A stretch of DNA of 64,000 nucleotides from Pelecanus crispus. Lineage: Eukaryota; Chordata; Aves; Pelecaniformes; Pelecanidae. The position numbers were made by a program, and so were the translations under genes. Positions 1 to 30,147 of this stretch are shown in pieces. Location of the stretch: contig NC_134651.1 in assembly GCF_030463565.1 (NCBI RefSeq), positions 11,482,734 through 11,546,733 of the forward strand, read 5' to 3'. Below the pieces are notes generated by a model. It saw nothing but the letters and a program-made list of their open reading frames with translations, searched no databases and had not been told where the DNA came from. The first letter of the stretch is position 1; every line of letters starts with the position of its first letter.

Positions 1-1154
1 CTGTGAAAACCCCAGCCCCCCCGTGAAGGGTGCCAGCCAGAAGGGGGGTGCCAGCCACGGCGGGACCCCCATGGAGGGACCAGCAAAGCAGCAAGTGGGT
101 GGGAAGGCCCCACGAATCCCCCCAGGGACAAGGACAGTGGGGACCAGCTTCAGTCAGAGGCTGGTGCCCAGTGATGCTGGGGGAGGGCAGGGATTGAGTG
201 GGGGATTAAAAAGGGAAAAAAAAAAGGGGGAAAAAAAAGAGCTAAATCCTTGCTGTTTGGCCAAATGACAAGGACAGGCAGCAGTGCTGGCAGGGCAGGG
301 CCCGGGTAGCGAGGACAGCCCCGCTGCCCACAGCGCCGGGGGTCCCGCTCCCTCCTGGGCTCGGGGGGGACAGGAAAGGATGGGGGGGCAGTAGCCATCA
401 GCACCCTCCCAGCACCCCGTGCCCGCACCCAAGGGTGGCGGGCAGGCACAGCAATTAATTATCCTTGCAGTTATTCCCCCGGGGCGGGGGAGGCTGCCAG
501 GACCCACACCCCAGTGCCCGGGCAGGTTCAATCGGGTCCCTGCCTCCGCTGCCAATTAATCCGGCCCGGAGGCATCGCCCATCCCCGTGGCAACGCCAGG
601 GCCCTGTCGATGCTGACGGGGGTTGCCATGGCAACCCCAGACCGATGGGGACTCCGGCTAATGAGACCGAAACCGGGGTGGGGGGGCGAGAGCCTACCAC
701 AGCCCTGTGATCATCACCTTGCCCTAGGTGGGCAGGGCCACCTCTGTGTGTCCCCCCCCAGGTCCCCCTCAGGCATCCTTGGGTGCCCTTACAGCCACCC
801 ATGCCAGGATGGGGCCCATTTTTACTGCCACCTCTTCACATTTAGGGTGCAAATAAAGAGGGGGGACACCCAGCTGGGGGACTGGGTCCCCAGGGACACT
901 CTCTGCTCCATCTACCTCCCTGGGGAGAAGGTGATGGGGGAGCAAGGAGGGGTTTCCCACCCCGAAGGGTGCCAGGACCCCCTGGATGTCCCTTTGCAGG
1001 GTAGCAGAGGGGACAGAGGCACCATCCAGGGGGGCAGAGGCACCGTCCGGGGCATCCCCAGGGAAGCAGGGTGGCGAGGGGATGTTCTGCACCTTCACCC
1101 AGCCCAAATGGGGATGGGGTCCACCCTCTGCCCCCAGCTCCCCCCACCCCATAC
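1..1154. other. EEF1AKMT4 intron or flank, no exon found
   Basis: This GC-rich stretch lies downstream of the second EEF1AKMT4 exon on the minus strand. I looked for the next expected exon, which should continue the methyltransferase core after the sequence VLTE (a glycine-rich PGGRF-type strand and a histidine-rich tail), and did not find it on either strand. The stretch is best read as intron 2 of that gene, with the rest of the gene beyond the left edge. No other coding signal was recognised. Confidence 0.55.
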
Positions 1155-2587
1155 CTCCGTCAGCACCCGCTGCATCGCGGCGGCCGCCTGGGGCGAGACG
1201 TCCCACGGGTCGGTCTCCTCCACCAGCAGCACGTCGAGGGTGCCCTTCTCCAGCACCACGTCGAAAGAGGCGTCGGGGAAGGCGAGGGCGCGGATGTCCA
1301 TGACGGCCCAGCGCAGGCCGGGGCAGCGGGCGTAGCGGGCGCGCATGGCCGCGATGCAGGCGGGGGAGAAGTCGATGCTGGTGACGTCGGTGTAGCCCAG
1401 CTCGTGCAGGTCGTGGCTCAGGGCGCTGTTGCCGCAGCCTGCGCGGGGGCACGGCTCAGCCGGGGCTCGGGGTGCCCGTGGGGGGGCTGCCTGCACCCCA
1501 ACCCTGCTCCCTCGGACCCAGGGAAGGGTGCGGACGGGCTGGGGCAGCTAGAGAGGGAGCAGGTCATCGCCTCGCCCCTAATTAGTGGGCGCTGCGCTCG
1601 TTCTTAATTACCCCCTTCCTGCAAGGTGGCGGCTTTGGGCTCCCGGCCCTGCAGGACCGCGGGGCGAGAGCAGCCCCTGCCCCGGCGCAGCCCCCGCGCA
1701 CCGGGTCCCCCCACCCCGGGGCGGGACGTGGGGGTGCTGGGGGCAGGGGGGTCCCCAGTCCTGCCCCGGCAGCGCCGCGGGGCAGGAGCCGGCCGTGCCC
1801 CCCAGGAGCCTGCTGTGGGGCAGGGGCCGGTGGCAAATTAGGGGAGCGCGCAGCATTTGGGGGGACTGAGCCGGGAGGGACGGACGGAGGGACAGACGGA
1901 GGGACGGCTGTCCCGGGCCAGCACCCCGCCCGTCCGGGGCCGGGGTGGCCCCAGCAGGACCCGGGCCCCGGGGTGCGGCGGGCACGGGGGAGGCCCCCTC
2001 CGCTCGCCGGGGGAGCCGCTCGCCGGGGGGGCCGGGGAGATCCCGGGGGGCGGATTTGGGGGCTATTAAGCGCAGCTGGCGGCGGCTGATCCGCTAACAG
2101 GATCGGTGATTACACCCGCCTAATCCCGCCTGCCCGGCGCGGCCGGGGGGGGGGGGGGCCGCGGGCGAACCTGCCGGGCCGGCGCGGAGCAGCGCGCAGG
2201 TGGGGCCGGGGGCCGCTTGTACCGGGCCCGGGGCCGCTTGTACCGGGCCCCGCCGCCCGCCCGCACCCCGGCAGCGGGGCCGCCCCTCCGGGCCGGGCGC
2301 TGCCCCCGGTACCGGCCGGGCGCCGCAGCGCCCCCTCGCGCCCGGTGCCGGCGCACCCACCGGCGGGACCCCGAGCCCCGCCCGCGCTCCCGCGCTCCAC
2401 CCGGGCACGTACCGAGGACGAGGATGCGATCACCGGGGCGCAGCTCGGCCTCCAGCTGCGGGAGGAACCGGGAGAGCCCCCCCAGCCACTCCCGGGGCTC
2501 GGCGCCCTCCCGCCGGTACAGCGCGTCCCAGAAGCGGCGCTGCCGGTAGCGGCGGTTGGCGGCGGGCGCGCGCCGCTGCTGCTCCAT
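1155..2587 (-). CDS. EEF1AKMT4: eEF1A lysine methyltransferase 4, first two exons (partial)
   Basis: Class I SAM-dependent methyltransferase expected to methylate a lysine of elongation factor eEF1A in the cytosol. Two exons are visible, 2587-2413 and 1438-1155 (153 codons), joined in phase at a donor GTACGT and an acceptor CGCGCAG. The splice rebuilds the SAM-binding motif [13 protein letters not shown], followed by the acidic loop TSIDFS, the motif VMDIRAL and the family-typical [12 protein letters not shown]. These match the human protein closely. The start ATGGAGCAGCAG has a good context and precedes the conserved [10 protein letters not shown] segment. Human EEF1AKMT4 has about 255 residues, so roughly the last 100 lie beyond the left edge. 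In mammals this gene is followed by, and can be spliced into, ECE2. The start is head-to-head with ALG3, only 159 bp away. Confidence 0.9.
2207..2252. repeat. Short tandem duplication in EEF1AKMT4 intron 1
   Basis: Two adjacent copies of a roughly 22-base unit containing GGGCCGCTTGTACCGGGCCC lie inside the GC-rich first intron. I see no function. It is simply a local duplication in the CpG island. Confidence 0.6.
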
Positions 2588-2746: not shown

Positions 2747-5669
2747 ATGGCGGCGGGGCGGGGGGGCGGCGGCGCTGCGGCGGGTCTGGCGGGAGCGGCG
2801 GGCGGCGTTGCTGGAGCCCAGCTACACCCCGCTGGTGGCCGCCTGCCTCTGCCTGGCCGAGGGCGGCGTCAACCTCTGGGTCATCCGCAGGGTCCCCTGT
2901 GAGTGCCGGGGGGGGCCTGCCCGGGGGCGCGGCGGGGGCCTCCGGGCAGTGACAGCTCGTCCCCGGGCTGGGCGGCGCTGGGCTGCTCCCCCGGGGGCCA
3001 GGCCCCGCTGGCAGGGTGACAGGGCTGCCCCGGCCCCTGTGGGTGACAGCATCCCCCGGCCAGGGCGGCGGGGGGGGGACGGGGGCGGGCTGGGGGGGCC
3101 TGGATGGGGCCGCGGGGGGCTGGTGGGGGGGGTGCGGGGCAGGGCCGTGGGCTCTGGAGGTGGGGGAGCCCCTGCCCGCGGTGCCCCCCAGCCCCCCTCG
3201 CCCCGCCTGACCCCCGCCCGTCCCCGCAGACACCGAGATCGACTGGAAGGCCTACATGGAGGAGGTGGAGGGGTTTGCCAACGGGACCCTCGACTACACC
3301 CAGCTGAAGGGCGACACGGGGCCGCTGGTGTGAGTGATGGGACAGCCGAGCTCCCCGCCACGGGGGGCTCCCGGGGGGTCCCCAAGGTCTGGCCCCTCAC
3401 CACCGTCTCTCCACAGCTACCCCGCCGGCTTCGTCTACATCTTCCTGGGCCTGTACTATGCCACGGGCCGCGGTGCGGACATCCGCCTGGCGCAGTACCT
3501 GTTCGCTGGCCTCTACCTCCTCAACCTTCTCCTCGTCTTCCGCATCTACTGCCGAACCAACAAGGTAGCCTGGAGCCAGGAGACCTCGGGGCCGCCTCAG
3601 GGCCTCTCCTGCTCTGCTGAGTCCTCACCCAGGCAAAATGGACTGGGCAGGAGGTCAGGGTTGGGGGTCTGAGGTTTGGAGGGGCTCGGTGGCAGCGGGG
3701 GGTCCAGGACAGGCTGCTGATTGCCCTTGTGTCTCTCTGTCCCCTGCAAGGTCCCCCCATATGTTTTCTTCTTCATGTGCTGCGCTTCCTACCGCATCCA
3801 CTCCATCTTTGTCCTGCGGCTCTTTAACGACCCCGTCGCCATGGCCATCCTCTTCCTCGCTATCAACCTCTTCCTGGAGGAGCACTGGTCCTGGGGCTGC
3901 CTCCTCTTCAGGTGAGGGTCCGGGGGCAGGGCGGGGGCTGCTCTTCATGGCGTGCTGTGTGCATGAGCGAGCTCGGCCCCAGGGAGGAGGCCGCGCTCAG
4001 CCCGGGGGCTGCCTGGGCACCCGTGTGGGGGGGCCGCAGTGGTAATGCAGCTTCCCACTCAGCCTGGCTGTGTCTGTGAAGATGAACATTCTGCTCTTCG
4101 CGCCTGGACTTCTATTCCTCCTCCTCCAGCGGTTCGGTCTCCTGGGCTGTATCCCCAAGCTCTGCATATGTGCTCTGCTCCAGGTGGGTCCTTGGTCAAA
4201 TTGGCTACAGGGGCAGGCTGGCAGCCCCATCGGCAGGGGGGAGAGGGCTGACCTGCCTGCATCGCAGCATCCTGCCTGGCTGTCCTAGGGGCTGGAGACC
4301 TCTGGGTGGATGTACAGTGGCACCAGCATCTGGGTTGGCCCCACACAGCAAGCTGGAGGTTGATAAATAATCTTTTTCACGGGGCTCCCACCTTTGGCTG
4401 ACTGGCCCTGCCATTCCACGCGGTACTGGGGTTCTCAGGAGGTGGCAAGGGTGATGGAGACCTGGCTTACCGCTGCTGCGAGGGTGCTGGTCTGTCTCTG
4501 GCAGGTGATTCTGGGGCTGCCCTTCCTGCTGGTGAACCCTGTGGGGTACCTGACTCGCTCCTTCGACCTGGGCCGCCAGTTCCAGTTCAAATGGACGGTG
4601 AACTGGCGCTTCCTCCCAGAAGAGGTTTTCCAGAATCGGGCTTTCCATGCTGCGCTGCTCCTGGCTCACCTGGCTGGCCTGGGGCTCTTTGCACTGCACC
4701 GGTGGCACAGGTGAGACCTGGGGTTCCCTGTGGGTGCTGGTCCCTGTCAGCTGATCCCCATCAGCCCCAGGGTGCAGGATATGGGTCCGCAGGGCTGCAG
4801 TTCTGGGGTTGCAGGCAGGAGGGGGGAGGAGTTACTGTTCCATTTCGGGGAGTGCACTGCCTAGGCATCATGGCTCGCAGGGGAAGGTCGGGGTGGGAGA
4901 GACTTCCAGCAGCTGAGATCGATGTTTGTGCTTCCCCCGCAGGTCCAAAGAGAGCATCCTGGCTCTGCTGAAGGATCCTACCGAAAGGAAACACCCGTCC
5001 CCTCCCTTGACTGTCAACAATATCCTTTGGCAGGGTGGGCAGCAAGGACAGGGGAGAAGGCAGGGCAGGGCAGGGCGGACCTCGGGCTCGACATTCGCAG
5101 GCTGCTGGTCCTGCCGCGCTGTCGGGACCTGCCTGGCCTGGGGGATGGAGCTGTGCTGTACGGCTGGGGAACTGCTGCGGGATCCCACCTTCAGCGCCCT
5201 GCATTTGTCCCCTTAACGCCAGCGCACAGATCGTCTTCGTCCTCTTCTCCTCCAACTTCCTGGGCGTCTGCTGCAGCCGCTCCCTGCACTACCAGTTCTA
5301 CGTCTGGTATTTCCACACCCTGCCCTACTTACTTTGGTGCACCCCTACCGCCAAGCTCGCCCACATGCCCAAGTGCGTGTTGCCAGGGAGGGGGACCACC
5401 CAGCTGCCGGGGGGGGCTGGGAGTGAGGGGGGTTGGCGTGTCCCCCTCCCATGCTGACCCCCAGCTTTCTCCCCTGCAGGGTGCTGCTGCTGGGCGTGAT
5501 CGAGCTCTGCTGGAACACCTACCCCTCCACGGTCTGCAGCTCCCTCTCCCTCCACATCTGCCACGGACTCGTCCTGCTCCAGCTCTGGTACGGCACAGCC
5601 TCCCCCCCGGTGCTGCACACCCCACCGCTGAGCAGGAGGCCCGCAGCCATCTCCAAGAAAGCCCAGTGA
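2747..5669 (+). CDS. ALG3: Dol-P-Man:Man5GlcNAc2-PP-dolichol alpha-1,3-mannosyltransferase
   Basis: Multi-pass ER enzyme that adds the first luminal alpha-1,3-mannose from dolichol-phosphate-mannose to the lipid-linked N-glycan precursor. Nine exons: 2747-2898, 3230-3329, 3417-3564, 3751-3911, 4063-4183, 4505-4710, 4943-5019, 5228-5372, 5480-5669. The total is about 432 codons against 438 residues in human. Conserved blocks are [69 protein letters not shown] and [20 protein letters not shown]. Hydrophobic membrane segments recur throughout. Intron 7 is of the AT-AC type; all others are GT-AG. One oddity: the well-placed ATG at 2747 is one base out of frame with the conserved sequence that begins LRRVWRERR, across a G-rich run. 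The conserved frame is open upstream to other ATGs at 2556 and 2586. The gene converges on VWA5B2. Confidence 0.95.
5020..5227 (+). other. ALG3: U12-type AT-AC intron 7 of ALG3
   Basis: The intron starts ATATCCTTT, the minor-spliceosome 5' consensus. It ends in AC, with a U12 branch-site match CCTTAAC at 5211-5217, about 11 bases before the acceptor. Using these borders joins AAC A to AG ATC GTC and gives N-K-I-V-F-V-L-F, aligning with human N-Q-I-V-S-T-L-F. No GT-AG alternative keeps the conserved frame. Confidence 0.88.
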
Positions 5670-12200: not shown

Positions 12201-14795
12201 ATGGCGCTGCTGCGGTCGACGAGGAAGAGGACCTCGCGGGTGACGCTCTGCAGGTCCCCAGGGATGCCCTCCGCCGCCGGGCAGAAGTTCAGCATCAGCA
12301 CGGGGTTGGGGAAGATGTCTTTGTGGAAACGCTTCTGCACGAAAACCACCTGCGAGCCAGGTGGGCCAGGGGCTTTCTCGCACCCCCTGGCCCACGCTGA
12401 GGTCTTCCTTGCCCCCCTCCCACCGCCTCCCCGCTTCCTCCTCCTCCTCCTCCTCCCTGCTGGGCTGGTGATGGCTGTGCCCCGTCACCTGTCTCTCGCC
12501 GCTGCCATCCTTCCTGGCGATCCGCACGTAATCCCGGCGGCTCCGGATGTGGGCCTCGTACTCGGGGTACGTCATGGTGCCGTCCTCCATCACCAGGTGG
12601 GGGTGGTGGGGCTCTGGGGGGCACAGGGGGGTTCAGAGCCACCCTGTGCCGCAGGGGGGTGGGGGATGCTCCAAATGCTTTTGGGGTGATGCCCCATCTC
12701 CCCCAAACCCGCCAAGGGCGCCGTTCCCCCTCACCGCAGGGGTAGAGGATGATCTCCAGGTCCCTGTCGTAGCGGTGGGGCTCGGCCAGCGTGACGCAGG
12801 TGGTGGTGGCAGAGCTGGCCCAGGGGTCGGCGTCAGCTCGCAGCGCGTGGGACGGGCTCTCCAGACCTGCCGGGGAGAGCAGGCGGTGGGGCAGCCCCTC
12901 GTGCCCCCCGCGCCTCGGCCCCCCACCCGCTGGGCTCCGCGCCTGTGCCGGACACGGCGCCATGGCGGTGGCTGCTCCCTGCCAGCTCTAATGGGATTAA
13001 CTGGGCTGGCAGCCAGGAGCGCGTCCCCACCGCCTCGCATCCCCTCCTCACCCGTCCATTGCGTCTCCCCGGGGAAGGAAGATGCTGATGCAGAGCTGCC
13101 CAAAGCCACGTGTGGGGTGACTTTGGGGGGTCCCAGCCCCCAGCCCCGCAGGTGCATGGGCAAAGGGGTTCTTCATGGGTAGGGAGTACAAGAGGCTGCC
13201 CAGGAAGGGGGCTTGTGTCCCCGTAGAAGCACAGAGGGACCAGGGGGATGCCATCCCAGGGGTTATCACCCATATTTCGGGAGGTTTTACCCAACCAACC
13301 AACACTGCCCAAGCTGCCTCCCTACCTGCCAGCAAGCAGGGGCCCTTCACCAGCAGCTCAAAGGCAAACTCATAAGGAAAAGGGTTGCAGGGTCGTCCCC
13401 GAAAGACATCGATGCTCTCTGCAGGCACCGTGGGGGGTGGCTGGCTCCGGGTACCCGGCCCCCCGAAACAGCTGGTGGGGCTGCAAGGGGAGAGGCAGTG
13501 ATGGCTCCTGCCCCCCTCCCCGCTCGCCCAGTGTCGGCATTCCCCCCCCCGGGATGGCGGAGACTGAGGAAGCCATGAAAATCACCATAGGGCCAACCTG
13601 TCGTCACACAAGCTTGCCGGCTCGCTCTCGGGGACGGCAGGGATGCGGGGCGTGAGGATGGGGGGGAGGAGGAGGCGCAGGGCCCCGTCCGGCAGCGTGG
13701 CCAGCTCCTGCGCCGTGCTCAGGGTGACGGCCAGGCTCTCCGCCGGGCACAGCGTGCCCGTGGTGATGACAAAGGTGGAGCGCTCTGTGTCTTCGTCCAG
13801 GACGAGGTGGCCTGGGGAGGGGAGGGATGCAGGGGGGTCAGTGAGGTTGGGGAAGGGGGGGGTTGTGTTAATTGCACTAATTACTCTCAAAGGGGGCAAC
13901 AGAGGCCATGCAAAGGGTAAAGACCCAGGAGAGGAGGACAGAGGGGAAAGGGGATGGGGCTGCCCTGGCACAGGGAGCAGCAGCAGTCCTCATGGAAAAG
14001 CAGCAGTGAGGATGAGGAGCCCTCCCTGGGCTCTGAGCCTCCCAGCCAGGAGGATCCAACAGGATCACCCGTGCCATGGCACTTACCACCGGCACAGCGG
14101 CACAGCCGGCCGGGGCTGGGGCCGCACTGGAGGCAGCAGTCCTGCGCCTGGTGCCGGTTCTGGACCTGGAATGTCACCCGCCGGCTGCCCACCACCGCCT
14201 CGAAGCCAGCCACCACCTCCGACTCCTCCAGTGGGTAGATGAAGACGCCTGCGGGCAGGAGAGACCCGAGGCAGATCCTGGCACGGACACCGTCGCGGTG
14301 CTGCCCACGGCAGCACCACTAAGAGCAAGGCGATTTAAATGCACGAGAGTGGGACAACATGCAGGAAGGACCCAGAGCCTCCCTAGCCCGGAGGAGGGCA
14401 GGGAGGATGAAATCCCCCTCTTCCTCAGCATTGGGAATGTTTTTGCCTGGTCTCACTCTTCTCTTACCCACAGGGCGATGCTGGGTGTTGGCAGTGCCCC
14501 CACCACCGCTGACCTCTGCCTTCGCTCCCCAAACTGAGCAAGGTTTGGGGGCCAGGACACAAGTGAGCTGGAGACGGCATGCTCTCAAGCATGGGTGTTT
14601 TTTGGGGGCCATGCAGGCAGCCTGGGTCCCTGCCAGTCCTGATAGCTCCCCCTTACCTTCCACGGGCTCCTCGTGGGGGTTGGTGTACACGAGGTGAGCG
14701 GTGATGCTCAGGGAGTACCCGTTGGCACAAGCCTTCACCCTGGAGCTCTTCAGGGGCAGAGCCTCCCAGGAGGAGAGGGCGTACAGGCCCGGCAT
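6299..14795 (-). CDS. VWA5B2: von Willebrand factor A domain-containing protein 5B2
   Basis: Twenty coding exons, 1309 residues (human about 1242): 14795-14657, 14248-14087, 13811-13598, 13480-13326, 12866-12735, 12613-12489, 12349-12173, 12080-11970, 11848-11646, 11340-11226, 11152-10705, 10629-10340, 9178-8953, 8865-8521, 8435-8298, 8183-8100, 7838-7761, 7551-7482, 7217-7109, 6907-6299. All phases close. The start MPGLYALSSW matches human MPGLYCPSSW. A VIT domain occupies about residues 1-150 and a VWA domain starts near 348 (FLVDRSSAMS). Conserved downstream blocks are IWKRIYQPSYIQEQYVLTHCS, NLLSPTHLDWDMLVEP and the tail WATAVALAWLEHRCAGFFEEWEL. The metal-site motif reads D354-x-S356-x-A358, so the last serine of DxSxS is absent, as in human DSSSV. 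Long serine/proline-rich linkers lie between. No signal peptide is evident. The function is not established. Confidence 0.93.
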
Positions 14796-17790: not shown

Positions 17791-20700
17791 TGGCCCATGC
17801 ACCACAGCCAGAACCACCATGTCCAGGACCTGTGCTGCTGCTCTCGCCTCCCCAGAGCTGCTAAAACCCCTGGAAAACCCCAGCCCCATGCCAGGGAACA
17901 GGAGTTACTTGCTCTCAATGCACCCTAACACAGGCACACCCCAAAAAAATGTCCCAGCCCCCCCAAATTCCCCCTGACACAGGAACATCCTGGCAGGGCA
18001 ACCCTGCAAAAGGGTTCCACTGCTCCTCCGGCCACGGGACATTTGTGGCATGGACCAGGGACCGGCTGCTGATACCCTGGGGCATGTTCCCAGCAGTTAT
18101 TAAAGCCAGCCCTGTCGGGTCCATGCTGGAGGGTGATTTCAGCACTTTTGTGGCCCTGCTGCCTCATCTCCCACCTCTTGCCCCTCCTGCAATCCAGGGC
18201 TGCCCCAAAAGCAGGTGTGCAACCCTGAGGCACCCAGGAATTGCAGAATACCCGCAGGGTCCCAGGCCACCGTGGTCCCAGACTCCCTCTCTCCCCGGCC
18301 CTTACCTGGAGGAGGAGGATGATGACACAGGGGCTGCAGGCTTGGCTCAGCACCCACTGGGTCCTTGCCCTCCGCAAAGCCCTCTGCCCTGGGGGTGGGT
18401 TTCCCTGCCCCTCTGGCTTAGGGGGCTGCAGTACCCAGAGGGGATGAGCGGTCCTTCCCCACCTCTCCCTGCTGCAGGCTCCCTCTCTGGCACTGGCTCC
18501 TTCACCGCCCTCGCTCCATCCCTCGCTCCCTGTGCCAGCAGCAGAGCTGCTCCAAGCCCAGCCTCATTAAAGAGACACACTCCCTGGTACCGCCGCCCCG
18601 GGGAGGGCTGGGGCATGCTCTCATGGGTGGTGCCGGGGGTCTCAGGGGACAGCCAGCACCCCAGGAAGGTGACAGGCACCAACCAAGAGCAGGGCCCACC
18701 CCCGTGGGCTGCTCTGCGCAGACAGCATGGAGATGTCCAGCCAAACTCGGGTGCTGGTGAGACCCCAGGGTGATGCTGCGGCACCCACAAACATGGGGTT
18801 TGGCTGCCGGTGACACACAGCCACCCCCTGCACCCCCCACCCCCCCTGAACAAAGCACAGGGCAAAACACAATCCCCCATCAGCCGGCTGAACTCTCCAG
18901 TACAAATACTGTGGGCCACAAGTGTCACAAACAGCTTCGCTAGGACAGGTCTCAACTGCCCTGAGACTGCCACAAGAGAGCTGGGCACAGGCGGGTGCCG
19001 AGCATCCACCCCAAACGCAGACACCCTGGAGTCCCACCGGGACCATCCCTGTCAGCCTCCGTGTCCCGCAGTGAAATCCCAGCCCCGAAGAGCAGGAAAG
19101 GGGGGGAATTTGGGGACAGCCCAGCCTTTGGGTGACGAGCGGGACAAGCAGCCTCTATGGGGAGGGTGCAGACGGTCAGGAAATCCCAATCCCGGCAAAG
19201 TCAGGACACGTCTGCTGGCAGGGAGATCTTACTGGTGAGCCCAGCCCGGGATGCACTGGGAATCCCTCAGCTGCCACTGCTGGTCCCATGTTCCCAGGTG
19301 GGACCAGAGAAAACCATCAGATTTGGGGCTAATCCTTGCCCTGCCTTGTGCAGGCAGCTCCCTCGCTGTGCTATAGATAGGGCTGTGCTGCCGCGGCTCT
19401 TTTTATAGAGCACGCGGAGGGGAGCTCCCACCCTCCCATGCACCACAAAACGCACCGTCGCAGCCACGCCGAACCTGGAGCCAGCCCAGCCACCCGGGCA
19501 CGAACCAGGGGCAGAAAGAGCAGGCAGTGCCGGCGGGGGGAGCGGTCCCCGGTCCTCAGCAGGTGATTTTGGAGCAGTGCCGGAGCGAGGAGGCCTGGCA
19601 GAGCAGCATCTCCCCGCTGGATCTCACCTCTAAGCTGGCCCACGCACCGCTGTGGCTTTGGCTCTTCGGCACAGGTTTCACAGGTGACGGCAGGAGCTAA
19701 GGAGGAAAAATCTTGACGGAAGACGCCCTTTGCTGCACTCAGTAGCATGGGGCACGCTCCCTCCTCCCAACCCCTTACCCTGCACTTCAGCCAACACAAT
19801 TATCTGGCAGAGAGGCACTCTGCGTGTCCCCGGGGTGCTTGCAAGAGCATGCTGAGCCATTCCCTCTCCCCGTGTGAGATGCCCCACGGCATGCCTCTTC
19901 CCCTCCTTGTGCTGCATGGGGAGAGAGAAGAGCTGAAGCATGCAGCCGCTCTCCTTCCCTGTCATTTATGACCACAGGAGAAGGATGTTTATACATTACC
20001 ATACATTACACCCCTACATGACAGACGCCGTCTCTGCGAGCTGCTGGAGGCACAGCGTGCACCGCAGCACATCCACCCAGCCTGCAGCCTGCACGGGGCT
20101 CCTGCTCCCACCATCACGGCGAGCGCCGTGGCTGCTCCAGCCCCAGAAAAAAACCCGCAAGCTTTGATGTTTCTCTGAGATATTGTTTCTAGGCCAAGCT
20201 GAGGCGAAGAAAAGCATCCAAATGAGAGCGCTGGGTCGGTGCCACCAGCCGGGATGATGGGGCTCAGCCAGCCCATGGCGTCAGACGCTGTCAGTGGCCC
20301 CGGCGTTACGGCAGGTGAATAACCACAGCGTGTGCAGGGCCAGGGACGCAGCCGAGCCTGCCCAGCCCGCCAGCAATGTGTGGCAGCCCCGGTGAGATGC
20401 AGATGGGCTCCATCCCGCTCCATACAGCGCTCACACCAGTGTCAGACAACAGGCATGCGTGTCCCTGCTCTGCACCGTCGCAGCTGCGCTACAGCAGCTC
20501 ATCGCAGCCACAGATAAACCCGCAGAGAGCTCAGCATTGCTTTTTGACAGAGCGCCGAGCTAAGGCAGGCGTTAAACCCCGCAAACGCAGGCCTGGCTCA
20601 GCCCAGTGGCTCCATTAAGTGCCCTTACACCCCAACAACCCCATGCAGCCCTCGGCAGAGGCTGTTGTACCACCCAAGGGACTGTTCACTATCTGGGTAT

Positions 20701-21949
20701 TTATCCCCAAATCACACGTACCTTGTCCTGGGTTTATTGAGCTGAATTACCACCCAGATAGGGCTGGAGGGAGCACAGACCACAAAGCTCTCACATGTTC
20801 TCAGCTCCTAAGTCACTGATAAGCCCTACGAATTGAGTGCTGTGGGAGGAAATAACCCAAAGCCCAAGGAGATACCGGCTGGTGTCAGGCTGGGAGTGAC
20901 TGCACTCAATGCAGCTGTGGCTCCTCAGACCCAGCTGAGGGTTGCACGGGCAAAGGCTGCAGGGAGACGGGCAGGGGCATCCTGTTCAGCTGTCTGCTGC
21001 TCATTAATCAGCACAAATTAAAGGTGATCCTGAGGAGGGGTAGCCATGGAGGAGGAGGGGAACGCCTGGTCAAAATTGGGTGCACCTCAGTTTAACCTGT
21101 GCAATATTGGCCTGCCCAGCTGCAGGGAGTTACAGAGGGGCTGGAGGGAGGAAGCAGTAGAAAATGAAACATCAGCAGAGATGGAGATGGCTCATGGATA
21201 TATCAGGGACCCCTGGGGAAAGGAGCTGGGAAAGCTGCCAGCGCTCCTCCTGCCCAGACTTAACCGAAACCCTCCCAAGATGCCGGCGCAGGCAGACCTG
21301 GGATGCGCGCTGGTGGCTGCTGGGTTTCCTTTCTACAGCTGAAAATAGCGGGGGCTTGCAGCCCCCACGGACCTCGCAGCAGCCGGCCTGGGGCAGCCAG
21401 GCTTACTCGGGGCGGCTGGCTCCCTGCCGTGCCAGGCTCGCTGCTGGAAACGAAACTCCGTGGGTTTTGTGAACCCGAAACTCGCACGCCCCCGCCGCCT
21501 GCCTGGCTGCACAGAGGCTGTCGGTGCCGTTTGGGATCAGCTTGGGCCAGCGCGGCGGCAGCAGCAACCGGGGCTCAGCGGCACGGTGGGGCCCTGTCCC
21601 TTCCCACGGGAGACCGAGGGGAAAGCTGGGGGTGCTGGGTGCCAGGCAGGACCGGGCTGGCCCGCTTCCCTGCCGGGCTCGGACCCCTGCCCGCGGCCAG
21701 GGATGGGGCACACGGGGCTGGGGCCCCCTCCCAGGAGCAGCGGCTGAGGGCTCGGCCGGGAGAGATGGAGACGGGAGGGGGCCGGGAGAACCGGACCTGG
21801 AAGGGAAACCATCCCAAAGGCCGGGGGTGGGCAGAGCACGGAGAGAGCTGCCGGGGCTCGTCCCCAGCTCAGAGCAAAACGTTCGCGGGGCGGGGGGGGG
21901 GGCAGAGGACAGACCTGGGAAGAAAACGGAGGGAAACGGGGAGGGGGTG

Positions 21950-22200
21950 GCGGAAGGGGCCCGGGCAGCTCCCCGGCGGGCGGGGATGGCCGGGCGGCTG
22001 CTTCCCTCTAGCGGGGACCGGCGGCCAGGGCGGGGGGCCCGGCCCCGCCGCCCCCGCGGGCACGTGGTGCGGGCGGGCCGCGCTTCCGGAGCGGCGGCGG
22101 CGGAGCGGTGAGAGCGGGCGGCACCGGGCAGGGCCCCGGGCAGCTCCGGGCCCCGCAACCCGGCCCCACGGCACGCGTGGGGTGCCCCCCGGGGCGGTGC
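21950..22200 (+). promoter_or_regulatory. CpG-island promoter and non-coding first exon of the nuclease gene
   Basis: Dense CpG sequence with a CACGTG E-box near 22060 and an ETS-like CTTCCGGA near 22083. A consensus donor GTGAGA starts at 22108 directly after GCGGCGGAGCG. A matching acceptor CCGCAG ends at 22640, 24 bases before the start codon of the nuclease frame. The simplest reading is a non-coding exon 1 ending at 22107 and a single coding exon starting at 22641. This is inferred from splice signals only. Confidence 0.6.
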
Positions 22201-22212
22201 TGGGCGGTCAGA

Positions 22213-22227
22213 CCCCCCCCCCCCCCC
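22213..22227 (+). repeat. C15 homopolymer
   Basis: Run of 15 C in the presumed 5' intron of the nuclease gene. It is a likely sequencing trouble spot. Confidence 0.9.
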
Positions 22228-22450
22228 ACCCCCGGGGTCCCAGGCTGGCCGGTGGCGGCCCCTCGGGGAGCCCGCCCGGCCCCCGTGCAGCCGCGGCACC
22301 CACGGGCGCCACTTCCCCGTCCCTGGGGAGGTGGCCCCGGGGGCGACCCCGCTGTGCCCCCACCCTGTGCTCTGGGCTGGCTGGGCCGCCACCGGGCAGG
22401 AGCCCAGGCTGCTGCTGGCAGGCCCGGCCCCACGCGGGGCTGGGTTTGGC

Positions 22451-22470
22451 GGGGGGGGGGGGGGGGGGGG
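22451..22470 (+). repeat. G20 homopolymer
   Basis: Run of 20 G in the same presumed intron, followed by TGTGTACACC. It has strong G-quadruplex potential. Confidence 0.9.
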
Positions 22471-22664
22471 TGTGTACACCCCAGCACCATTGAACCAGCC
22501 AGCATGCCACCACGGTGCACCAACTGGTGTCACCAGAGAAAAGGCACGGGGACGGAGTCGCCCCGGCAGCCTGCGCAGGGAGGACCAAAGGGGAAGTTGT
22601 GTTTTGGGTAAGTGCATTCAATTTTGTTCAATACCCGCAGCGTGAGACCCTCTGACACGCAGCG

Positions 22665-23798
22665 ATGGGGAGACCCAGGAAGCAGCCCACCGGCACATCA
22701 TCCCCTCCTCCGGCCGCAGCCGCCTCCAAAACCGCCCCCACCGCGCCACCACCTTCTGCCTCGGCCACCCGGGCCAAGGCCGCGGCTGCGGGCGGCCGAT
22801 CCAGGAGCGCTCCGGCTGCCGGGGCTGCCGGCCCCAGCCGAGGGCAGGGTGCGAAGCCAAACTCCTCTCAGCCAAGACCCGCAGCATCCCGCAGAGCCCT
22901 AGGAGATGGGGGTGACCGGCACGGAGCACCCCCCAGGAGCTGCTCTGCAGCCCAGAAGAAGCCACCTGATGCCAAAGGAGCCGCTGGTCTGGCCAGACCT
23001 GACCCACGTCCACAGAAGCAGCAGCCTGGGGCTGACCCGAGCGGGGCCTGGGGCCGGTTCCTGCCCCCACTGGAGAGCCAGGACATCCCATGGGTGGAGA
23101 AGGAGACCCGGGGCCAGCGGAACAATCCCAAATGGTACGAGTGGCGGGAGAACCGCATCACCGCCTCTGTGGCCCCCAAGATTGCCAACAGCAAGTTCGC
23201 CAATGGCAAGACGGACGAGGTGCCCCAGTCCTACCTGAAAGCGGTGGTGAGCTCCAGCCCCGGGGTGCAGACGCCGGCCATGTCCTGGGGTGTGCGCAAG
23301 GAGAAGGCGGCCGTGCGGGCCTACGAGCAGCTGAAGTCGCAGGCGGCGGGCGAGCCGGTGCGGGTGGACGACTGCGGCCTCTTCATCCACCGGGACAAGG
23401 AGTGGATCGCCGCCAGCCCGGACGGCGTCGTCAAGGAGGTGGCCACGGGGAAGGCCCTAGGGCTGCTGGAGGTGAAGTGTCCCTACAAGCACAGGAACAG
23501 GACGGTGCGCGAGGCCTGCAAGGACAAGGACTTCTGCCTGGAGGTGGACGGGGACTCCTATGCCCTGAAGAAGGATCATGCCTACTTCACCCAGGTCCAG
23601 TGCCAGATGGCGGCCGCTGGCTTCCAGCGGGCCGACTTTGTGGTGCACACCACCAAGGAGACGGCCGTGGTCCCTGTGGAGTTTGATGCCAAGTTCTGGG
23701 AGCAGACGGTGCCCAAGCTGGAGAAGTTTTACACTGAGGCGGTGATTCCCCACCTGGAGGAGAAGGCAGGCAGCTCTGTCTGGGCCAAGGAGGAGTAG
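22665..23798 (+). CDS. YqaJ/lambda-exonuclease-type PD-(D/E)XK nuclease, intronless coding exon
   Basis: 377 residues in one uninterrupted exon. Residues 1-130 are Pro/Ala/Lys/Arg-rich and probably disordered, opening with the AT-hook-like GRPRK at 2-6. Residues about 140-365 form a YqaJ-type nuclease fold: R164-I-T-A-S helix, G209-x-x-x-E213 helix, S251-P-D253-G strand, the catalytic L268-E269-V-K271-C-P strand, and Y307-x-x-Q310-x-Q312-x-Q314. Every position expected to bind metal or catalyse is present, so a double-strand DNA exonuclease or endonuclease activity is likely. Relatives occur in phages and in eukaryotic DNA transposons such as ISL2EU types. I know of no human counterpart. Codon use is GC-rich like its neighbours and there is a CpG-island promoter, which suggests a resident host gene rather than a recent arrival. 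No terminal repeats or transposase were seen nearby. The frame looks whole. Confidence 0.88.
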   Translation: MGRPRKQPTGTSSPPPAAAASKTAPTAPPPSASATRAKAAAAGGRSRSAPAAGAAGPSRGQGAKPNSSQPRPAASRRALGDGGDRHGAPPRSCSAAQKKPPDAKGAAGLARPDPRPQKQQPGADPSGAWGRFLPPLESQDIPWVEKETRGQRNNPKWYEWRENRITASVAPKIANSKFANGKTDEVPQSYLKAVVSSSPGVQTPAMSWGVRKEKAAVRAYEQLKSQAAGEPVRVDDCGLFIHRDKEWIAASPDGVVKEVATGKALGLLEVKCPYKHRNRTVREACKDKDFCLEVDGDSYALKKDHAYFTQVQCQMAAAGFQRADFVVHTTKETAVVPVEFDAKFWEQTVPKLEKFYTEAVIPHLEEKAGSSVWAKEE

Positions 23799-24478
23799 AC
23801 CCCCCCGCCTCGCTCACCAGGATGCTCACTTGGCCGCTAGCATAGAAATTACGCCTAGTTTTACTGCTGTTCTTGGACCATTTGCTGCCTCTCCCCCAAA
23901 ACAACTGCCTCAGGAATGAAATGTCGCACCAGCAGGACCCTGCTTTGGTAAGGGTCCCCTCAAACAGTGACTTCTTCCTGCCCCAGCCGGGTCCGTGCTC
24001 AGCCCCCAGTGCCTTCTTGTCCTGTCCCCCTCGCTACATTCCCCATTTGTCCCAGCTGCGCTGCCTGACAGACGCTGGCATACCTCCGGATTGGCAAGGG
24101 AAGCCAGTGATGCCTCTGTGCTGGAATAAGAGACTTATTTTGTGGAGAAAACTGGATCCTTCGGCACCTTAACTGCTGTCAGGACTAAATCATAATTCCA
24201 CTCTGGAGTGGAGACAGAGCCCAAGAACAAAACACAGCTTTTGAGCTAAATCGTGATGTACCTTAAGAGTTGCAGCAAGGGTGTGCAGACACCCTCCCTG
24301 AGCCATCGGACCTGCTGCTGCTTTGGAGTAACTTGTGATGAGTTGGCTGCAGCCTCAGGAAGACGGTGCCCCTCGAAGAGGTTGTCCCCAAGCCCACGCA
24401 GCTCCAGAGGATGTTCTTGTGGAGCAGCCCCACGTGTTGCCACGGTGTGGGGGGGGGGGCAGGCATTGCTCTATTAAA
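23799..24478 (+). other. 3' untranslated region of the nuclease gene
   Basis: Non-coding sequence after the nuclease stop, ending at an ATTAAA poly(A) signal (24473-24478) followed by a GT-rich downstream element near 24500. It is less GC-rich than the coding exon. Confidence 0.6.
24473..24478 (+). promoter_or_regulatory. Poly(A) signal of the nuclease gene
   Basis: ATTAAA variant, with GTGTTCCCTGTTGTTTGTG downstream as a plausible GT-rich element. It sits about 200 bp from the opposing poly(A) signal of the PHD gene. Confidence 0.6.
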
Positions 24479-24674
24479 TACAATGCGCACTGGCCCGTGT
24501 TCCCTGTTGTTTGTGCAGCTCAGGGTTTACGGGGTGGGGCAGGGCCGGGTGGGATCTGCACACCAAATCCCCTCCTGCCCATAGCAGAAGGGGAGCACTC
24601 AAGGCCCAAAGGGATGTGAGACCTGAAGCCACTGAACTACACCAAAGCCACCACCATTATGGCAAAAAAGTACT

Positions 24675-24680
24675 TTTATT
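24675..24680 (-). promoter_or_regulatory. Poly(A) signal of the PHF13/23-like gene
   Basis: AATAAA on the minus strand within an A/T-rich patch. It is the first canonical hexamer noticed after the PHD-gene stop, implying a 3' untranslated region of about 1.8 kb. Confidence 0.6.
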
Positions 24681-26476
24681 ATATACATAAGACTCCAGCC
24701 ACACTCCACAGGGCAAGGACCAGAATTTGCTATTTTACATATCAATACAAAGTAACTATAAAAACATAAAGCACTTTTGGGGCCCAGGCTTTCCACAGGA
24801 GGAGAGAGGCACAGGGATGAGCCTGGGGGCTGCTGAGTGACAGGGGGCTGCCCCACACCCTCCCCCAGCTGTGGTCCCACAGTAACCAGATGTGCAAGTA
24901 GGAAAGAACCCAGTTAAGAAATACAGTCATGGGGACTGGCACGTGGGGGCTGTCCCACTCCCCGCGGCAGGCAGTGGCATGCCAGGGGCCGAACCGAGTG
25001 TCACCAGGACAGGAGCAGGGTCTGCATCCCCCAGGGAAAGTGCAGAAGGCACATAGGCCAGGCTCTTTGGAGGGGCTGTGAGGAGGAGGTGGGATCCAAC
25101 AGTTAGTGCACGTGGGGCCCCGGGAGATCGCACACACACACTGCACACGGGGGACACGGAGGTGGGGGGGAAAGCCTTCCACTACCAGACTTAACTGGGG
25201 GCCTGGAGAGGGCATGCCCCATGTCTCCAGAGCAGCAGTTGCATAGCAGAAGGGGCTCAGGGCCCACTCTTGACAAGTCATTAGGTTTCGCTCTGTATGT
25301 CCAGGAAAAAAACCAAACCAAAACAAACAAAAAAAAAAACCCCAAAACCCAAACCCAAAACAGCTTCTTTGATGGAGGGAGTGCTGGGAAGGCAGGCCTT
25401 CCCAGCTCCAGGCTCCATCCGAGCTCAGGTCTCAGCATCCAGCTGGTGTTGAAGCAGATGCTCCAGACAGCCCTGCAGGCAGGAGATGGCCACAGGGTAC
25501 AAGCTTCAGTTGTTTTAAACTGGAAGTGAAAAACATGGAAAGCTAACCAGAGCACTCTCCTGCTCCCCTTCCATAGGGCTCCCAGCCTTGCCACAGCCAG
25601 CTCCGACGATAACTGCTCAGTCTCCTAGCAGGAATCCCACCCCCCCTTTCACACAGGAGACTTCAGTGCAACTGGAGAAGGTGAACCAAGGAGGGCTGCT
25701 CAGCAAGAACAGCCTTTGTAATCGTCTACCAGAGGATGCCTTTGCCGCTCCTAACCCAACAGGACTATCCTGGGGCATGCAGGCACAGCAAACAAAACCA
25801 GGAGCACCACAGGCCAGGGGAAGGACCTCCCCTGTGCAGCCTACAAGGCTGATGAGCCAGAGATGGATGAGTCCACCAATACCCACAAGACGCAGAGCCC
25901 CAGTCTGCTTCAGGCATCAGCAAGGATGGATGTCCCTTCCCCTCCCGCCCTGGAGGGCAGCACACTACATGGAAGGAGCTCGCCTGGGCTGCACCTACTT
26001 GCTGGAAGAGAACTTGGTTCACCGGGGCTTTGCCATCGCAGCCCACCCAAAGGTCTGAGGCAAGGAAAGGAAAACAGTGAGGAAAAAGGAGGAAGGGGAG
26101 TCACATCTTGGGATAAGTGTAAGCTTCCACCACACCACAGAAAAACTACTTGGACTAGGTTCTCCTTGGCTGCCCTGGGGGAAAGGCACTGAGCCAGCTT
26201 TGTGCGAGGACAGAGATGTTTCTGAGTGACCTAGTGCGTGGCTGGACCACCCTCCTCTCCCCCCCACACCTCTGGGGTAACTGAGCTCCGTGGCCAACGC
26301 GATCCTCAGGGAGGACGCGCGTGGCAGCTTCCAGGAGTCAGAAGTGCAAGGGGGACAGTCCAGCCCCGTGGCCCAGCCCCTCCCCTGCCATTACTGTGCA
26401 TTGATTGTCTAGCCAAACCGGGCTACAGTCTTCAGTTTAAAAAGGGGACCCCCGGCCTCCCTGCTCTGGAGGAACT
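24681..26476 (-). other. 3' untranslated region of the PHF13/23-like gene
   Basis: No coding signal on either strand. It contains an A-rich low-complexity patch at 25305-25361. Its assignment to the PHD gene rests on the absence of another gene and on the poly(A) signal at 24675-24680. Confidence 0.5.
25305..25361 (+). repeat. A-rich low-complexity tract
   Basis: Runs of A broken by C in the pattern AAACCAAAACAAACAAAA and CCCAAAACCC. No target-site duplication or body of a SINE or LINE was recognised beside it. Confidence 0.7.
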
Positions 26477-28046
26477 TCAGTCACAGAAGCGCTTGCGGGG
26501 CACCGTCCGAGCTCGGTTCGAGCGGCGAATCTCCTGCTTGGCATCGCGGCATCGCTGGCAGATGAAAACCTCAGGCACGTTGGATTTGCGGATCTTGGCA
26601 CAAGAGAGGTGGATCCAGGTAGCGCATTCGTTACATTCGATCATGGGCCTCCCTGCGAAGGGCTTCAGGCAGAAGCAGGTGATCAGATCCCAGGCATCAT
26701 CATCTGATCAGGGAGAGAGAGACACTGGTCAGAAACCACCTTACCAGCTGCAGGTCCAGCTGCACCCAGACTAGCCAGTTCCACTGGTGTTAAATGGGAC
26801 AGCCCCCCCACTCACCTTCTGCTTTGGTGTTCGGAGCTGCTGCGAATTCGACTGCTAAAGTTGCAAAGTGGGGGAAAAAAAGAGAGAAAAAAAATAAAGA
26901 CCGGATGAGCGAGGCACCCCTACGCCTCACTTCAGACACATTTCAGGTCTGTACCGCTCGCTCTGCAGAACAGAGCTGCCAAAGGGCAGGCCAGCTCCCT
27001 GCCCTCTGCTCTTCGGTCCTCCCAGGTCCCAAAGGTACTCCCCTTGCTGGGAGAGGCTTGGGCCATCGACAAGCCCTCCCTGCAGCCAGCATGGGTGGCT
27101 CCAGCTGAGGGAGGGACAGTATCTGGCACTGGCTGCAGCACAACAGGGCCCTCTACGCTCCCTCAGACACTCACCACTAAGCTGGGAGCTCCCTCTGCTT
27201 GCATCTTCCCCTTCACTTTGGTCCAAGGTACTACAGGAACTGGGGCTTTTCCTCCCTCCAGAGCAGGGGTCATGCTCCTTTAGCTGAGGATCATCTCCTG
27301 CTGGCTTCTCAGTCCCCTGCGCTCCGTGCATCCAGTCCTTCTCCTCCTTCATCAGCTCCTCCAGGAGGGAGTTGGGCTGGGGGTCCCCAGCTGGGTTGAG
27401 GGAAGGCTCCAAGAGCTGCTCTTTCACGGGAGGCACTTGTCCCTCCAGCGCAGCCAACTCCTTCACCCCGTCCTGCTCTGCCCCAAAGCTCTTCCCGGTG
27501 CTCGGCGGCACCCTCTTTTCTACCTCCTGCTCCATAATGAGTTTCTTTGCTGGTGGCTTCTTCCGTTTGGTTTGCTGGGGCCGGACATCGTAGAAGCCGG
27601 TGGGGAAGGCAGGGCAGCTCATGAGCAGGCTGCTGTCCACAGCCCCCCGGGCCACGGCGTTCCTGCTCCTCCTGTCATCCGTCAGGACATGGCAGTCGGA
27701 GGAGTGGGACGAGGCCCAGCTATCGCTGTCCTGAGTGCTCCCCGTGCTGTTCTGGGGACTCATGCTGCCTCCATGCATCCAGAGCTCATTCTGCAAGAGG
27801 GGAAAACACAGGACTAGCATATGAGACCGCAGCGCAGACATTCAGGGTGAGGAGGAAGGGGCTGGGGATGGAGAACAACTCTCCAGGAAAAGAATTAGGA
27901 GCTGGGTCTGCAACCGGTCTTTTTGCAGAGGAACATCCCGTAAGCCCGCTTACCTCCTCAGGGTAGGGGATGTAGCCTGCGTAGGCCAAAACGAAGGTGC
28001 AGAACTGATTGAAGTCCTCCACGGTTCTCTGTCGCTTCTGCAACGG
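26477..28046 (-). CDS. PHD-finger protein of the PHF13/PHF23 family (5' exon unresolved)
   Basis: Four coding exons: 28046-27954, 27790-27175, 26854-26816 and 26703-26477, giving 324 residues in continuous phase. The first carries the family hallmark [20 protein letters not shown] followed by GYIPYPEE, nearly identical to PHF13. The last encodes a C4HC3 PHD finger: TCFC, IECNEC, WIHLSC and ICQRC, with the tryptophan expected to help cage trimethyl-lysine. It ends [15 protein letters not shown]. The middle is serine-rich with a basic nuclear-localisation-like [12 protein letters not shown]13 and PHF23 read H3K4me3 through this finger, so a nuclear chromatin-reader role is likely. The middle differs from what I recall of either, so this looks like a third paralog. 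The starting exon is not settled: an in-phase donor (GAGGAG|GTGAGC, about 30012) lies in the CpG island, but its frame has no ATG. Confidence 0.87.
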
Positions 28047-30147
28047 CTGCAACAAATGCCACGTGTCGATTAAACTCCCCGGATACCCCTACCCGAGCCG
28101 AGCATCACAACCGACCCCGGCAGGCAGCCCTGGACCGCCAAGCAATTACACAAGCACGTAATATTTAGGTCACCCGAACACCCAGCCTTCCCATAACCCA
28201 TCCGCATCATCTGGCTTTACAGATGCAGCCCTTCCCTTTAAAACCCAGATCACAGAGGGGGGACACACAACGCTGACGCGACGGGACACCCCGAAAGCGG
28301 CGTCCCACAGCAGCCGCCCGGCAGAGCGTGAGTCAGAGGCTCGGGACCCCGGTGCCGGGGATGGCCGGCCCCCCCCGCCCACAGCCGGCTGACTCAAGGC
28401 CAGAGGGAGAAGGCATCGAGGGCGCCCGGAGTTTTGGGCTTCCCTGGCTGCTCCCGGGTCAGCCGGAAGAGCTCGGCGCCGCTCGGGACGAGGTCCCGGG
28501 GACGGAGCGCCGGGGCGCGGCGGTGCGGGAGCGCCGGGAGCCCGCGGCAGAGCCGGCCCCGCGTCCGCGCCCCCCGAGCCAGGGGCGGAGGAGCAGGCAC
28601 CCCCCCCCCCCCCCCGCCGGCTCCGGGGACGGAGGGGAGCCCCCGGGGCCGCCTGCAGGGCTCCCCCCCGCGGGAAGGCGGCCGCGGCCCGCCGGGGAGG
28701 AGAGGGGAGGGCAGGGGAGGGGGCGGCCCCCCCGCCGCCGCCGCCCGTCCCCGCGCCGGGCACCTGATGGCTCCCAAGATGGCGCCGCGCTCCCGGTCCT
28801 GCCCCGACCGGCCGCCGGGGGGGGGGGGGGGGGGGGGCGACCCCACCCCCGCTCACGGACACGGACACCCCCCGCACAAGCGGCACCCACCCCGGCACCG
28901 CCACGGCCCCCCCCCCCCCCCCCCGCCCCCGGAACCGGCACACAGCAGCCCCCCCCCCCCTTCACACGCACCCCCGCAGCCCCCCGCCCCGGGCCCGCCC
29001 GGGCACGCACACGGCGCGGCACAGCCCGGCCACGCAGGTCCCCCGGTCGCGCCGCCGCCGCCCCCCCCCCCCCCCCCCGACCCCGCGTGCCGCCGCCCCC
29101 CCACCCGCGCACACACACGCGCGCCCGGGGCACCACCCCCCCGCCCGCGCCCACCGCCGCCCCCCGAGGGCTCCCGCACACACACGCGCACAGAACCCCC
29201 CACGCACGCACCCCCAGCCGCCCCCCCACGCACACAGCGGCCCCCCCGGCCCTCCCAAGCTCCCCTTAGGCACAGCCCCCCCCCCCAGCACCCTCCCGCA
29301 AAGCCCTCCTCGACACACGGCCCCCCCCCGTGCACGCACACACGCGACCCCCCCCATGCACACACACACACGAACACCCCCCCCCCCCCCCCGGGCACAC
29401 ACACACACGAACACCACCACCCCCCCGGGCACACACACACACACACGAACAACCCCCCCCCCATGCACACACACACACGAACACCCCCCCCCCCCCGTGC
29501 ACACACACACGAATACCCCCCCCGCACACACACACACTAACACCCCCCCCCCGGCACACACACACACTAACACCCCCCCCCGGCACACACACACACTAAC
29601 ACCCCCCCCCCGGCACACACACACACTAACACCCCCCCCCCGGCACACACACACACACGAACACCCCCCCCCCCCGTGCACACACACACACCACGAACAC
29701 CCCCCCCCCCCCCGGCACACACACACACACACACGAACACCCCCCCCCCGTGCACACACACACACGCGCCCCCCGGGGCCCCCCCGCCCCGCGCACACAC
29801 ACGAACTCCCCCGGCGTAAGAAACCGCGCCCCCCCCCCGCACACACACACACACACACACGCACAGAGACACACACGCCCCCCCCCGCACACACTCACAG
29901 ACATACTCACACGCCCCCCCCGTCCCCCCCCGCAGGCACCCCCGGGCACGGCGCGCCCCCCGGGGCCCCCCGGCACCCGCACCACAGCTTCCCCCCCCCC
30001 CCCCCGCTCACCTCCTCGGGCACCGGGGATCCGGGGCTGGGCACGGGGCTGCTCCCCGCCGAGCGCGGCCCGCCGCGGGGGAAGGGTCCTCCGGGGGCGG
30101 CGGCGGCCCCGCGCCCCCTCACCTGCCGCCTCCCCGCCGGCGCTCAT
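28047..30147 (-). promoter_or_regulatory. CpG island and candidate first exon of the PHF13/23-like gene
   Basis: Extremely GC-rich stretch upstream of the first recognised coding exon. On the minus strand an ATG at 30147 opens MSAGGEAAG, and a consensus donor after GAGGAG lies near 30012. That ATG frame and the phase-0 frame needed to join the conserved exon differ by one base. A second transcription-start candidate is the YY1-type AAGATGGCGCC near 28780, followed on the minus strand by CATCAG|GTGCCC. Which of these is used cannot be decided from sequence alone. Confidence 0.5.
29285..29930 (+). repeat. CA/C minisatellite with roughly 30-bp units
   Basis: Tandem units alternate a CA run with a C run, in variants such as CACACACACTAACACCCCCC and GTGCACACACACGAACACCC. 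On the minus strand, the presumed sense strand of the PHD gene, this reads GT repeats plus G runs of 8-14. That means strong G-quadruplex, Z-DNA and R-loop potential. The array lies between the candidate first exon and the first recognised exon of that gene. Confidence 0.9.

Follow-up and report, generated by a model that had tools for sequence, protein, structure and literature searches.

The window analysed here, a stretch of 64,000 nucleotides from Pelecanus crispus (assembly GCF_030463565.1, contig NC_134651.1, positions 11,482,734 to 11,546,733 of the forward strand), contains an intact single-exon reading frame of 377 codons without internal stop (22665..23798, plus strand). With a probability of roughly two in three, we read this frame as a single-copy host gene whose product is a catalytically competent lambda-exonuclease/YqaJ-type nuclease. 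The gene probably started out as the exonuclease gene of a transposon of the ISL2EU type, which would have left no other YqaJ copy in the genome. This reading is based on the frame, the fold class by prediction, the conserved active site and the single copy; in addition we infer activity, nuclear location, polarity, biological role, transposon origin and selection. Both the frame and its YqaJ-type family had been proposed in a preliminary description of the window, and both held when the protein was searched against profiles and its structure was predicted.

Family assignment and active site

Pfam searches assigned the protein to PF09588 (YqaJ) with 66.8 bits (cut-off 22, E value 3.4e-18), the match covering profile positions 1-149 of 150 and residues 156-320. 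In PHROGs it matched a RecE-like recombination exonuclease (E 4e-16), and tblastn with an E limit of 1 yielded 107 phage records (best E 1e-15), every one of them below 60% identity. The fold predicted for the protein is that of lambda exonuclease; a single-sequence AlphaFold model with a pLDDT (predicted local distance difference test) of 38.4 was left out of the fold comparison. A chance open frame was rejected on the Pfam match together with the fold evidence. Assignment to a herpesvirus UL12 fragment was rejected, profile and fold both being weaker. By profile match and predicted fold, the protein belongs to the lambda-exonuclease/YqaJ nucleases, and its PD-(D/E)XK set is intact. Enzymes of this type are known otherwise chiefly from viruses and transposons. 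The GC (guanine plus cytosine) content at codon positions 1, 2 and 3 of the nuclease domain (0.62, 0.42 and 0.90), beside a 3' flank of lower GC (0.53-0.56 at 23801-24400), is a coding signature; third-position GC in five neighbouring exon stretches was 0.62-0.91, which places the nuclease gene near the top of the local range. An in-frame TGA starts 12 bases 5' of the ATG. Beyond M1 the frame has just two methionines, M206 and M315, so that no other ATG start would take in the whole nuclease domain.

Close relatives were sought by peptide words, which matched 10 stretches in IMG/VR and gave four matches in GTDB genomes, none of them confirmed, and a degenerate pattern for the stretch preceding Q310 found no stretch in IMG/VR. 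Distant relatives were reached only with an alignment as query (A1). The relatives comprised 90 loci, namely the best 80 of at least 506 relatives and 10 from a second search, of which 73 were taken on and 17 left out by hand as near-duplicates or lower-ranked. Two were dropped because the matched part contained a stop, which left 71, reduced to 55 at 85% similarity. Together with three phage records and the window protein these loci form alignment A2 (59 rows); A3 lacks the three phage records (56 rows), and A4 comprises 15 rows picked by hand. In A2, 23 columns are at least 90% conserved among the 58 relatives, and the window protein agrees at 21 of them. It departs at R152, where the others have Gln and the window protein has Gln one residue earlier, and at T203, where the others have Asn.

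Of 207 residues aligned with lambda exonuclease, 47 are identical in the window protein. W157, R161, S168, E213, S251 and D253 are identical to W24, R28, S35, E85, S117 and D119 of the phage enzyme, and E269, K271, R277, Y307 and Q310 to its E129, K131, R137, Y154 and Q157. The set named in the preliminary description (E213, D253, E269-V-K271 and Q310) is present as stated. We take D119, the counterpart of D253, to be a metal ligand, and R28, S35, S117 and R137, matched here by R161, S168, S251 and R277, to form the 5'-phosphate pocket. The changes R28A and K131A each abolish the activity of lambda exonuclease, according to the consulted part of PMC5758106, which cites Zhang et al. (2011).

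The N-terminal tail (residues 1-127) is rich in Ala, Pro, Gly and Ser, has 21 Lys plus Arg versus five Asp plus Glu and an isoelectric point of 11.95, and shows neither helix nor strand in the single-sequence fold, the model of which is poor. It starts with MGRPRK, which we take to be AT-hook-like, and is probably a disordered nuclear or DNA-binding tail. Several domesticated transposon proteins serve DNA binding or transcription regulation, and the basic tail with such a start would suit a host gene in which the fold has been retained chiefly for these tasks, with catalysis secondary. We regard this as quite improbable, as all mapped catalytic and phosphate-pocket residues are kept and binding alone would not require them.

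Copy number, origin and age

Searches of the genome (1.314 Gb, 310 contigs) with the nuclease protein and with the PF09588 profile found one place each, the same locus. At least 150 beta-keratin matches, a mark of sauropsids, were obtained in this genome. When the DNA of the 2501-base locus was used in a search that skips simple repeats and very common words, six short partial matches were obtained elsewhere, all in its first 471 bases (four in the first 173) and none in the coding frame. None of the 11 genome matches to PF13359 (DDE_Tnp_4, Harbinger-type) at E ≤0.01 lies on the nuclease contig (C9). Around the gene (19500-26400), 62 pairs of inverted repeats were found. Of the 25 pairs listed, five straddle the gene (19-23 bases, 78-84% complementary), and C/G homopolymer tracts account for most of the longest ones. 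The best score of the straddling pairs, 13.5, compares with a shuffle mean of 13.3 and was reached by 23 of 60 dinucleotide shuffles, in an analysis that would miss very short repeats. The earlier statement that no transposon is seen here is supported: the nuclease stands without a recognisable transposon, and Harbinger-type domains occur elsewhere in the genome. According to the consulted part of PMC4482050, ISL2EU (PHIS) transposons have terminal inverted repeats of 6-259 bp, carry extra frames whose function is given as unknown, and are absent from birds and mammals; that of PMC9179366 reports ISL2EU as absent from tetrapods.

Neutral evolution of the whole frame, with its sequence of today as the starting point, was simulated with kappa 4, a raised CpG rate and no indels, in 2000 runs for each point. 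At 0.02, 0.05, 0.1, 0.15, 0.2 and 0.3 substitutions per site, 51%, 18%, 4%, 0.95%, 0.25% and 0% of the runs remained free of stops, while 33%, 6.7%, 0.5%, 0, 0 and 0 were stop-free and kept the 11 lambda-matched residues as well. Given this decay, the gene is either young or selected, and the published absences of PHIS and ISL2EU argue against a young gene. That the frame is a young, unselected relic of a recently inserted and not yet decayed transposon agrees with its frequent survival at the two smallest divergences and with the five straddling repeat pairs. It is nevertheless very unlikely, because no sister copy of the coding part was found in 1.314 Gb, the straddling pairs score at chance level, the contig carries no DDE_Tnp_4 match and the consulted part of the survey (PMC4482050) reports the group as absent from birds.

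A DNA virus as the direct source (giant virus, baculovirus-like or herpesvirus alkaline nuclease), in place of a transposon, would fit the weaker match to the viral alkaline exonuclease profile PF01771 (27.3 bits, cut-off 20, E 1.8e-6, only positions 98-229 of 461). It would also fit the BFVD structure matches, which include Pandoravirus, medusavirus and baculovirus nucleases, and the best single-sequence match in the PDB, mimivirus R354 (E 0.006). We consider a viral source unlikely. R354 (5yet, 5yeu) is larger than the window protein (chains of 391-399 residues, numbered to at least 477) and farther in fold.

Several points weigh against a selected host nuclease of transposon origin. Frame length alone is no evidence in a GC-rich stretch, where open frames are cheap; frames of 396 and 404 residues, longer than that of the nuclease, lie within the GC-rich region 21303-22617, and what counts for the frame being a gene is homology, not length. 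The match to NCBIfam TIGR03033 (lambda-exonuclease family protein) reached 54.7 bits, under the cut-off of 68.05, and identity to the 58 aligned relatives, phage or bacterial, is only 22-34%. Six of the 11 PF13359 matches have no stop inside, and judged by these profile matches, the genome is not entirely free of PHIS transposase relatives. The outcome of the simulation hinges on the age of the gene and on the chosen parameters, and one recent, unique horizontal gain could also look intact.

Frames were inspected at the two best DDE_Tnp_4 loci, C157:16317-16778 (L096) and C20:1556473-1556964 (L097), and were found to be intact, with 367 and 405 residues. Both are possibly host genes of transposase origin, though the survey, in its consulted part, reports PHIS absent from birds.

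Proposed activity and known systems

In a host nuclease of this type, the basic tail would, judging from its charge and isoelectric point, take the protein to the nucleus. R161, S168, S251 and R277 would bind DNA ends with a 5'-phosphate, and E213, D253, E269 and K271 with divalent metal ions (two-metal mechanism) would take off nucleotides in the 5'-to-3' direction, so that 3' single strands remain. Lambda exonuclease is a 5'-to-3' exonuclease that forms a trimeric ring, and by analogy, activity, polarity and substrate of the window protein are most likely those of the phage enzyme. It may be used in end processing and annealing repair or in the disposal of foreign linear DNA. At E ≤0.1, PADLOC matched no family to the protein and gives no support for defence in that library; because of this empty result, which is weak evidence, we lean slightly to end processing. 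A wider proposal is put forward tentatively, namely that a nuclear 5'-to-3' exonuclease of phage or transposon type, conserved and expressed, belongs to the sauropsids' own genes and serves resection or foreign-DNA degradation, an enzyme which mammals are without and which became fixed beside VWA5B2 after the parent transposon vanished.

The lambda exonuclease structures (1avq, 3slp, 3sm4, 6m9k) and LHK-Exo (3syy, 3sz4) share 22-25% identity with the window nuclease over aligned residues. The window nuclease differs from both in being an animal host gene and in having a basic tail of 127 residues and a longer loop between ExK and Q310. ISL2EU elements make an AT target duplication. In the consulted parts of PMC4482050 and PMC9179366, the YqaJ exonuclease of ISL2EU (PHIS) has a domain of the same name and animal hosts; compared with that published description, the window nuclease stands alone, in one copy, with no transposase domain on its contig and with straddling repeats at chance level. 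Human MGME1 and EXO5 are much farther from it and nothing marks them as a mammalian counterpart; presumably they do not belong to the YqaJ/lambda class.

Domestication is well known for transposases. For amniotes, neither a YqaJ host gene nor a domesticated transposon accessory nuclease was found in the open-licence literature by titles and abstract openings, and automatic annotation may already name the gene. The usual route of end processing is that of MRE11, EXO1 and DNA2. If the nuclease is active, birds would have an enzyme like lambda exonuclease next to this route, a matter of interest for DNA end processing and for defence against viral or transposon DNA. The gene is easy to test, with a single coding exon, a single copy, a protein of small size and inactivating point mutants known from lambda exonuclease.

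Gene structure and neighbouring genes

The coordinates of the gene, its parts and its neighbours are collected in Table 1.

Table 1. Features of the window (positions counted from its first letter).
Feature	Position	Strand	Basis
Coding frame, lambda-exonuclease/YqaJ-type nuclease, 377 residues	22665..23798	+	open reading frame and Pfam
N-terminal tail, residues 1-127	22665..23045	+	composition
Nuclease domain, residues 128-377 (PF09588 at residues 156-320)	23046..23795	+	profile and structure comparison
R161 (lambda exo R28)	23145..23147	+	alignment
E213 (lambda exo E85)	23301..23303	+	alignment
D253 (lambda exo D119)	23421..23423	+	alignment
E269-V-K271 (lambda exo E129, K131), catalytic ExK	23469..23477	+	alignment
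Q310 (lambda exo Q157)	23592..23594	+	alignment
CpG-rich region, probable promoter	21401..22800		base composition
Candidate 5' untranslated region intron (GT at 22108, AG ending 22640)	22108..22640	+	consensus fit
Candidate poly-A signal ATTAAA, GT-rich sequence after	24473..24478	+	sequence
Methyltransferase-domain frame, left of nuclease gene	1098-1547	-	
ALG3	4367-4711	+	Pfam E 8e-29
VIT_2 domain	13890-14318	-	Pfam
PHF13/PHF23-like gene, PHD finger	26480-28088	-	PDB: PHF13 E 7.5e-32, PHF23 E 2.3e-26
ABC_tran frames, right of PHF-like gene	to ~42.3 kb		Pfam

A CpG-island promoter with a spliceable non-coding exon had been described for the gene. The CpG-rich 5' region is indeed present and peaks at 22001-22200 (GC 0.86, CpG observed/expected ratio 0.87), with a dip to 0.42 at 22401-22600. 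Splice donors were scored with a rough matrix of consensus frequencies. The proposed 22107/22641 splice is consistent with consensus, its donor ranking fourth of 121 GTs in 21500-24500; the top-scoring donor of that region, however, has 22607 as last exon base and falls within this intron, 34 bases before the exon start at 22641. This donor may end another 5' exon. Within the candidate intron, C and G homopolymer tracts at 22196-22488 make up an inverted repeat whose 39-base arms are 79% complementary. The ATTAAA motif, if used, would imply a 3' untranslated region of about 0.7 kb.

Six of 10 neighbouring frames matched a Pfam family and four matched none. From gene order we take the VIT_2 frame to be VWA5B2, and the ABC_tran frames are presumably ABCF3. 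The nuclease gene and VWA5B2 point away from each other, and the nuclease gene and the PHF-like gene point towards each other. The frames at 26930-28088, without Pfam match, were assigned to the PHF-like gene by reading them. The placement between VWA5B2 and ABCF3 given earlier is right on the VWA5B2 side, but on the other side the PHF13/PHF23-like gene separates the nuclease gene from ABCF3. We know of no PHF13/PHF23-like gene at this place in mammals, and the one found here may be an additional, duplicated copy that sauropsids have retained. Past its frames, at 28900-30000, lies a long, strand-asymmetric GC-rich tract (GC skew -0.60 and AT skew 0.76 at 29001-30000), in which minus-strand frames read as Cys-Val-Cys repeats.
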